Source: Planctomycetota bacterium (GTDB lineage: Bacteria > Planctomycetota > Phycisphaerae > Sedimentisphaerales > Anaerohalosphaeraceae). Taken from it: a stretch of DNA of 64,000 nucleotides. A program made the translations under genes and the position numbers. This document shows, piece by piece, positions 56,002 to 57,926 of this stretch. The stretch's first letter is position 1; each line of letters starts with the position of its first letter. A model generated the notes under the pieces. The model had not been told where the DNA came from and searched no databases. It saw only the letters and a program-made list of their open reading frames with translations. The DNA lies in assembly GCA_016873215.1 (NCBI GenBank), contig VGXU01000005.1, positions 1 to 64,000 of the forward strand. The letters run 5' to 3'.

Positions 56002-56637
56002 TCAGGCTCCGGCCGAATCGCCGTATCCATATAGTCTTTGGTGCCGGATAAATTCCCAAACCGCTGGCAGCAAAAAGCTCTCAACATCCTGGCCCAGGGC
56101 GATGCGCCGACGGATTTTCGTACTGCTGATATCCACAAGAGGAGCGGGAATTACGTCTTTACGAAGTTGGTCGATGTGGCGGGGAGGCAGCCGTCCTTCC
56201 AGTTCATCCAGCGACGGAACCTTAAAACCGGCTCGATACAAAATACATAATCGGCACAAATCCAGTAGTTCTTCGATGCGATACCAGCGGGGCAGCTCCG
56301 GCACGGCATCGGCACCCGCCAGCCAATATAATGGAACGGACCCGTATTGGGTCCGAAAATGACGGACCGTATCGAAAGTATAGCTGGGCTGTGGGCGGGT
56401 CAACTCACAATCACTGACTTCCCATTGGGGGCAATCACTAATGGCCAGACGAATCATCTCTAATCGCTGACTACCGGCGGCCACTGCGGCTGCGGCTTTA
56501 TGAGGTGAACGTGACGCCGCAATAAAGAGCACCTTGTTTGCGGAAAGATAACGCATTGCAAAATCCGCCATCGCGATATGCCCGCGATGGACCGGATCAA
56601 ACGAACCGCCAAATAAGATGACGCCGGGTTTATTCAT
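56002..56637 (-). CDS. nadD: Nicotinate-nucleotide adenylyltransferase
   Basis: The protein has 211 residues from ATG 56637; a GTG at 56649 with AGG five bases upstream is a real alternative (MSFGMNKP...). Seen: LFGGSFDPVHRGH (HxGH motif of nucleotidyltransferases) and the C-terminal ISSTKIRRRI. It adenylates nicotinate mononucleotide in NAD synthesis. It is a single gene, with about 150 bases to the HEAT operon promoter. Confidence 0.94.
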   Translation of the reverse strand: MNKPGVILFGGSFDPVHRGHIAMADFAMRYLSANKVLFIAASRSPHKAAAAVAAGSQRLEMIRLAISDCPQWEVSDCELTRPQPSYTFDTVRHFRTQYGSVPLYWLAGADAVPELPRWYRIEELLDLCRLCILYRAGFKVPSLDELEGRLPPRHIDQLRKDVIPAPLVDISSTKIRRRIALGQDVESFLLPAVWEFIRHQRLYGYGDSAGA

Positions 56638-56649
56638 CCCAAAACTCAC

Positions 56650-57066
56650 AAAAACCTGTTGGATTATAAAAAATTTTAACGAATATTTTAAAAAAATCCA
56701 CTTTTTGTTTTGAATTCTTTTTTTGTCATTGCTGGCCGAATAAATGTTCCCATTTTTTATTTTCGGCGTTTTGAGAGTAAAAACGCCGATTTGCGTATTC
56801 TTGCGTTATACGATGAATGGAAACAAAATTTCACTTTTCGCTAAACACCTTTTTTCTTCTTTTCAACAGAGAAACGAGAGGTAATCCCGATGGAGGAAAT
56901 AGCGTGGCGAAGATTCAACCTCTTTGAAAATGCGGGGTTAGGAAAAAATCCGTGAAGAAATTTTGAAGCAATTGACGATGATATGACTATAATAACTGAA
57001 TAGAATAGGTGGAAAAACCTGTACAGGATATTGTTTAGTGAAATTCGAAAGGAGGTGATTCCAGCT
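56650..57066. other. Intergenic region with leader of the lysine peptide
   Basis: No gene is supported. TTGAAG (56963-56968) and TATAAT (56988-56993) are 19 bases apart and could be the promoter of the lysine peptide, though spacing is long. Short frames around 56813 and 56890 (21-23 codons) lack convincing start signals; one at 56890 has GAGAGG eight bases upstream and cannot be ruled out. Confidence 0.35.
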
Positions 57067-57141
57067 ATGGCAAAGAAGAAAGCCAAAAAGAAAGTCGCGA
57101 AAAAAGCAAAGAAGAAAGTCGCAAAGAAGAAGAAGAAATAA
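57067..57141 (+). CDS. 24-residue lysine-rich peptide with an extended ribosome binding site
   Basis: ATG 57067, TAA 57139-57141. Sixteen of 24 residues are Lys, with Ala and Val between, in K-K-x-A-K-K type repeats (MAKKKAKKKVAKKA...KKKVAKK...). The Shine-Dalgarno AAAGGAGGTGAT (57049-57060) matches the expected complement of the 16S rRNA 3' end over about 12 bases, and continues CCAGC after one extra T. The Shine-Dalgarno core is seven to eight bases from the ATG. A strong terminator follows. The peptide resembles the C-terminal tails of histone H1-like proteins, so DNA, RNA or acidic-surface binding is plausible. It is far too short to be a usual protein of that type. Confidence 0.75.
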   Translation: MAKKKAKKKVAKKAKKKVAKKKKK

Positions 57142-57178
57142 CTTTGGACTTCTTGGGAAGTCTGAGTCTGCGACTCAA

Positions 57179-57219
57179 AAGGAAGGTTTTTCCAGCCACG
57201 GCGAGACCTTCCTTTTTTT
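57179..57219 (+). terminator. Rho-independent terminator of the lysine peptide gene
   Basis: AAGGAAGGT (57179-57187) and ACCTTCCTT (57206-57214) pair over nine bases around an 18-base loop, with seven T (57213-57219). It makes the lysine peptide a monocistronic transcript. Confidence 0.85.
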
Positions 57220-57253
57220 ATGCCTCTCCCCATCCTCCTTTAACGCCCGCTTC

Positions 57254-57336
57254 CTATAGCTCGCCAAAGTCGATTATATAACGATGGTCATCTGCTGGGG
57301 TTTGACACGCCCAACCGTCCAGAAGACCCTGCTTTC
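57254..57336 (+). pseudogene. Decayed fragment of a korA-like gene
   Basis: Bases from 57269 read, in frame, VDYITMVICWGLTR, against VDYKTLVICWGSTR in intact KorA (codons around 59370). Over 14 codons the DNA differs at 4 of 42 bases. Just before it, the KorA codons for LW-P-P-R are represented by CTA-TAG-CTC-GCC-AAA, so a TGG has become the stop TAG in a gap-free alignment. Similarity fades after about 57336. There is no start and no open frame; it is a relic of a second korA copy, lying 0.1 kb before the ferritin-like gene. Confidence 0.75.
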
Positions 57337-57443: not shown

Positions 57444-57926
57444 ATGGATATTTTTGCTTTTGCGATGAAGATGGAAAAGGACGGAGAAACGTTCTATCGC
57501 GATCTTGCCCAAAAGACCGCCAATCAGGGAATCGCCAATATCTTTGAGATGCTGGCCGACGAGGAGGTCAAACACTACGGGACAATCAAATCGCTTCAGG
57601 GCGGAACTCATCTTGTGGCTGAAACCGACATTCTGGGCCGGGCGAAAAATATCTTCGAACGGATGCGGGATTTTAATGACCCGCTCCGGATTGACGCCGG
57701 CCAGATTGAGCTTTACCGCCAAGCGATGAAGTTCGAAAAGCAGAGCGAGAATTTCTACCTTGACCGCGCCGACCAAACCAAAGATACCGAACAGAAACAG
57801 TTATTTCTGCGCCTGGCTTCGGAAGAGAAAAAACACTGCTTCCTGCTGGAAAATATTGTGGATTTCGTCTCCCGTCCGCGAAGCTGGCTGGAAAACGCAG
57901 AGTTCTTCCACCTCGAAAATTATTAA
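57444..57926 (+). CDS. Ferritin-like/rubrerythrin-type diiron protein
   Basis: The protein has 160 residues from ATG 57444 with AAAGGG upstream. Seen: two ferritin-like half-domains with E-x2-x-H patterns: FAMKMEKDGETFYRD...ADEEVKHYGTI and FEKQSENFYLDRA...ASEEKKHCFLL. The spacing is that of the four-helix diiron fold of rubrerythrins (YciF/DUF892-like or Rbr erythrin domain). No rubredoxin zinc knuckle follows. It may act as a peroxidase or iron-related oxygen sensor, useful next to the oxygen-sensitive KorAB. It precedes korA by 45 bases, so probably one operon. Confidence 0.85.
   Translation: MDIFAFAMKMEKDGETFYRDLAQKTANQGIANIFEMLADEEVKHYGTIKSLQGGTHLVAETDILGRAKNIFERMRDFNDPLRIDAGQIELYRQAMKFEKQSENFYLDRADQTKDTEQKQLFLRLASEEKKHCFLLENIVDFVSRPRSWLENAEFFHLENY

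Follow-up and report, generated by a model that had tools for sequence, protein, structure and literature searches.

The 64,000-nucleotide stretch of planctomycete DNA analysed here (the window) carries, on the forward strand at positions 57067–57141, an ORF for a lysine-rich micropeptide of 24 amino acids, MAKKKAKKKVAKKAKKKVAKKKKK, with its ATG start codon at 57067–57069 and the last base of its stop codon at 57141. On the same strand, the ORF is preceded by an extended Shine-Dalgarno (SD) sequence, GAAAGGAGGTGAT (57047–57059), and followed by an intrinsic terminator with the apical motif GCCACGGC (57178–57219); a short stretch predicted to form a hairpin (57145–57175), not conserved in sequence and with alternative pairings also predicted, lies between stop codon and terminator. 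The divergently oriented neighbor on the reverse strand (56002–56649) is a nadD-like gene with a cytidylyltransferase-like fold (Pfam PF01467), which by synteny marks the conserved place of the micropeptide gene; downstream on the forward strand follows a gene of the rubrerythrin family (57444–57926; Pfam PF02915). An earlier note on this DNA had placed the gene with its signals at 57049–57219, accurate to within 2 bases, and had called the product two-thirds lysine, in agreement with 16 lysines among the 24 residues. A longer N-terminal reading from TTG at 57031 (36 amino acids) was rejected, since agreement with relatives begins only at the ATG.

A similarity search with the 24-residue peptide returned no matches on account of its short length and low complexity, and sequence patterns and synteny were therefore used to follow the gene through related genomes. 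At E-values up to 1, no Pfam or NCBIfam model matched this peptide or its relatives of 99–129 amino acids, low complexity being a hindrance to such searches; an incomplete coverage of the literature yielded no description of a lysine-rich micropeptide family. To avoid selection by a lysine pattern, loci of relatives were located by their nadD gene and the flanking DNA was read: a divergent, lysine-rich ORF beginning with MAKK adjoins nadD at 29 of 30 loci, and the one remaining contig breaks off 354 bases short of nadD. Six of 13 further genomes of the order carry a lysine-rich ORF at nadD; the genomes lacking it there are three out of four in one family and all four in another, and such genes are present elsewhere in the latter family. 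In total, 35 of 43 genomes of the order have a lysine-rich ORF beside nadD, as compared to none in 27 genomes from more distant parts of the phylum. A degenerate pattern, consisting of an SD followed by ATG and lysine codons, matched in 44 of 397 genomes of the class; the reversed pattern, used as a control, gave no match in the same 397 genomes. The micropeptide gene is real and is conserved over a large group of Planctomycetota, and the K-rich micropeptides that the earlier note had proposed to look for at this place in relatives do occur there.

The 35 family members range in length from 15 to 133 amino acids, a ninefold variation that had previously been overlooked; the differences arise mostly by units resembling KKKVA or KKKAT. 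After the start, the residues are 62% lysine, 21% alanine, 8% valine and 5% threonine, with little arginine and proline; apart from alanine, valine and proline there is no hydrophobic or aromatic residue, and approximately 1,500 codons include a single acidic residue. Lysine codons account for 936 AAR triplets (511 AAG, 425 AAA) against a single AAY, while alanine (GCN) and valine (GTN) codons use all four third bases; selection therefore acts on the amino acid and not on a purine run. In similar pairs of equal length, some of them spanning two phyla, 50 codon differences are synonymous and 20 change the amino acid. Judged by these codon patterns, the micropeptide frame is translated, and the earlier view of a genuine micropeptide gene gains support from synteny, frame conservation and the AAR preference. 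The same evidence bears on a chance origin, in which the lysine codons would have arisen fortuitously from a purine-rich spacer that follows a good SD. Such an origin would suit a short, low-complexity ORF in a MAG that has no protein similarity matches; it is nevertheless refuted by the recurrence of the ORF at the same place in the order-wide count, by its synteny with nadD, by the empty reversed-pattern control and by the AAR:AAY ratio of 936:1, and its probability is negligible.

The SD GAAAGGAGGTGAT is an exact complement of the 16S rRNA 3′ end over 13 contiguous nucleotides, and CCAGC at 57061–57065 would permit five more pairs beyond one bulged T. The 16S rRNA gene of this genome is broken by a contig end and its 3′ end is unreadable, so that the 16S genes of relatives served as reference; at seven relatives' loci, from the same family and order, the 3′ end invariably reads GCGGCTGGATCACCTCCTTTCTAA, with the agreed tail GGCTGGATCACCTCCTTTCT. 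In a background sample of 342 ORFs of at least 150 amino acids from 464 kb of the same genome, each represented by the best among all its candidate starts, the longest exact match to the anti-SD was 9 nt and the strongest duplex reached −22.0 kcal/mol, compared to 13 nt and −26.1 kcal/mol at the micropeptide; the SD therefore stands at the extreme of the sample. The earlier note was right that this pairing far exceeds the usual length, and its count of about 12 bases was slightly low. The feature is shared within the family, as 28 of 35 members have an SD of 12–14 nt; the strict pattern of SD plus start, allowing up to three mismatches, occurred in no genome other than this one in a set of 59. 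Other genes of the order with MAKK and lysine-cluster N-termini, encoding RecA, endonuclease III, Rho, a DNA methylase and histones, have SDs of only 4–6 nt, and two purely lysine-rich members of 140 and 68 amino acids have SDs of 6 and 5 nt, respectively; the long SD is therefore tied to the micropeptide gene and not to lysine-rich starts as such. As a caveat, a 6-nt SD is more efficient than longer ones in Escherichia coli (PMC2176067), and a 13-nt SD alone therefore does not imply high output; Staphylococcus aureus, on the other hand, relies on extended SDs (PMC13009471). In the window, a hairpin is predicted at 57000–57069, in which ATAGGTGGAA...ACCT pairs with AGGT..TTCCA(G)CTAT and which would cover both SD and start codon; the hairpin is specific to the window, and the upstream sequences listed for relatives give no hint of a sequestered SD.

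The strong terminator that had been proposed to close the gene consists of a hairpin at 57178–57213 and a T-run to 57219, with a predicted stability of about −20 kcal/mol. Among 33 members with complete 3′ ends, 31 have a hairpin terminator 15–160 bases past the stop codon, a count that omits one further match, weak and more distant. Terminator and ORF had been recognized correctly in the earlier note, which missed that the terminator itself is conserved. The motif CCACGGC occurs in the hairpin of 22 of the 31 nadD-linked terminators, which were found by a search that did not require the loop; in a 39-sequence alignment (A1), for which the loop motif was a prerequisite of entry, compensatory changes occur at 12 of 15 stem pairs. 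A covariance model run over 464 kb of the same genome scored the window copy at 54.9 bits and the next best match at 19 bits; at the named loci it found the hairpin beside lysine-rich genes, some copies combining the same stem with a different loop. The motif is not a generic one shared by terminators throughout the genome, as only one of 55 terminator-like hairpins contains GCCACGGC. Rfam yielded nothing at gathering score in the window, and chance-level matches only at 56900–57300. As an observation in its own right, the conserved GCCACGGC hairpin is specific to the micropeptide gene and may act as a binding site for a protein or as an sRNA element.

These features invite the alternative that the RNA is the main product: the start would be a ribosome-capturing site, the lysine run would slow the ribosome, and the terminator hairpin would act as a 3′ regulatory or protein-binding element. 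The 13-nt SD is consistent with such a role, as are the maintenance of GCCACGGC while the stem changes with compensation, the confinement of the element to the micropeptide gene within the sampled 464 kb, and very short versions (10–17 amino acids) with long SDs in other phyla. An RNA function alone leaves unexplained why an in-frame K/A composition extends over 15–133 amino acids and why the third base of the lysine codons is restricted to AAR; furthermore, the loop conservation seen in the 39-sequence alignment was preselected, although the loop also recurs in the nadD-linked terminators found without this requirement. On balance, this explanation is unlikely.

A census of neighbors within 2.5 kb at 47 named Planctomycetota loci found nadD at 26, lysA at 17, parA at five, mnmE at four and uvrC at four; lysA, parA, mnmE and uvrC were named by reading the protein sequences and not by profile search. 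The five parA loci are without nadD; this association (5 of 47) would suit a nucleoid role but may be due to chance. The rubrerythrin-family gene of the window is not a conserved neighbor; its homologs in relatives have no lysine-rich ORF alongside, and the rubrerythrin neighbor is therefore incidental. The lysA loci raise the question of a leader peptide, the lysine codons of which would respond to the availability of lysine and control a downstream lysine gene by attenuation; lysine codons followed by a terminator are the classical layout, and lysA follows ORF and terminator at the 17 loci noted. However, a downstream lysine biosynthesis gene is limited to those loci; the next gene in the window is rubrerythrin-like, other families have uvrC (on the opposite strand), parA or others in this place, ORF and terminator are kept without lysA, and lengths up to 133 amino acids are unlike a leader. 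No antiterminator appeared in the single predicted fold of the transcript. A leader function is very improbable.

The preferred reading, to which we assign a probability of roughly 0.6, is that the gene encodes a free-standing, lysine-rich tail of the histone H1 C-terminus or Hc2 type, which would be made from a monocistronic gene, bind DNA and/or RNA, and condense or coat the nucleoid. Judged by its composition, with lysine accompanied only by A, V, T, R and P, the peptide is disordered; it would be an intrinsically disordered polycation, attaching to DNA and/or RNA through its charge and contributing to nucleoid coating or condensation together with the histone and the other lysine-tailed proteins of the order. 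The extended SD, the lack of co-transcribed genes and the separate terminator would together constitute a dedicated translation cassette; we infer that the peptide binds nucleic acids and is located at the nucleoid, and it may be abundant, as the earlier note had suggested. Attached tails provide the best indirect evidence that the free one, too, acts on nucleic acid: within the genomes of the order, N-termini with MAKK and a lysine cluster occur on RecA (L215, L220), endonuclease III (Nth; L206, L214), Rho (L202), a DNA methylase (L204) and histones (L208, L217), and nearly all of these lysine-tailed proteins are nucleic-acid binders. The nucleoid reading is weakened by the shortest members, which at 15–24 amino acids would be very small proteins to condense DNA, and the composition by itself is compatible with DNA, RNA, the ribosome or polyphosphate as partner. 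The polycation could instead serve another polyanion, either polyphosphate granules or ribosomal RNA: AlgP, an H1-like Pseudomonas protein of the same composition class, associates with polyphosphate granules (PMC9239181), and a strongly basic micropeptide could equally occupy ribosomes. This partner choice is improbable, given that the recurrent neighbors provide no link to polyphosphate genes and that the lysine-rich N-termini in the same genomes are found mainly on DNA- and RNA-binding proteins.

The closest known proteins include the chlamydial Hc2 (HctB) and Bordetella BpH1, which share lysine-rich repeats, A, V, T and P between the basic residues, and a large length variation through repeat number; size variation in Hc2 derives from lysine-rich pentamers (PMC2848022), and the micropeptide family likewise has units of the KKKVA/KKKAT type with length polymorphism. 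The Pfam HC2 profile gave no match at E-values up to 1, in a search hampered by low complexity. Hc2, at 165–237 amino acids, is built from pentamers with two basic residues each and has a separate C-terminal part; in contrast, the micropeptides have 15–133 amino acids and about three lysines in five residues, consist of the tail alone, and come with an extended SD and a conserved terminator. The C-terminal KPAA repeats of Pseudomonas AlgP and PhaF are similar in being disordered, lysine- and alanine-rich, H1-tail-like and DNA-binding (PMC9239181), but they are fused to an alpha-helical domain, whereas the micropeptide repeat is free-standing. Finally, the tail chemistry is shared with face-to-face histones, for which Planctomycetota are a main bacterial home and the tails of which mostly carry positive charge (PMC11390915). 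Another contig of the same genome encodes a bacterial histone that begins with a short lysine-rich segment (L072, C23:27537–27737; closest PDB entry 9qt0, E-value 8e-17). The micropeptide itself has no histone fold, as the ORF stops after the lysine-rich stretch. Histone genes have SDs of 5–6 nt, and the micropeptide gene is therefore not simply a truncated histone gene; this candidate was rejected on the separate loci and short SDs of the histones. The description as a detached H1-like tail, already proposed in the earlier note, holds up best in the form of a free-standing lysine-rich tail in a genome that also encodes a tailed histone. Within the H1-like kind of lysine-rich protein, the family represents a new, free-standing variant, whose gene stands out by its unusual translation cassette and by a terminator element specific to it.

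If this reading is correct, a histone tail exists as a separate gene in a genome with a tailed bacterial histone, and a protein class encoded next to almost every nadD across much of one order may escape standard annotation because it is too short and too low in complexity. The planctomycete Gemmata has a highly condensed nucleoid, the packaging proteins of which were unknown (PMC3440768). The strongest SD of the sampled genome, combined with a gene-specific terminator motif, also provides a natural system for testing the purpose of extended SDs.

Beyond the class, one scan of approximately 85,000 genomes, selecting by SD pattern, returned 84 stretches, about 50 of them from Planctomycetota and about a dozen of them ordinary genes. 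In Patescibacteria, Omnitrophota, Methylomirabilota and other phyla, it found homologous or convergent lysine-run ORFs of 10–45 amino acids with SDs of 9–14 nt, mostly followed by a terminator-like hairpin. A near-full-length SD, a pure lysine-run micropeptide and a dedicated terminator may form a cassette that recurs in Phycisphaerae and, at different loci, in Patescibacteria and several further phyla, and whose transcript, with its ribosome-capturing start and, in Phycisphaerae, the conserved GCCACGGC hairpin, would be a regulatory or ribosome-holding RNA with the nucleic-acid-binding peptide as co-product; the probability of this scenario is low. The gene order serS – peptide – secA is common, in whole or in part, to four loci. 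Levybacteria-like contigs (L097, L124, L139, L148, L075), one of them labeled Nanoarchaeota and probably misbinned, carry lysine-run ORFs of 10–14 amino acids with SDs of 11–14 nt, several between serS and secA, and share a near-identical 3′ stretch, TTGGTAAGCTATTTGGAGCATTACCAATTGATCAGTTGGTAA, ahead of the terminator. A second group, mostly Patescibacteria (L100, L110, L111, L117, L118, L141), has lysine-rich micropeptides of 15–45 amino acids with an SD of 11–13 nt and a terminator, convergent with a phosphoesterase-like gene (PHP-type by eye). At three further loci (L078, L080, L128), from Omnitrophota and a contig labeled Woesearchaeota, a tandem repeat protein with the unit KVAKVGVKKEKGYLYFVDKxGDVSCAKMARG ends in a lysine-rich C-terminal tail.
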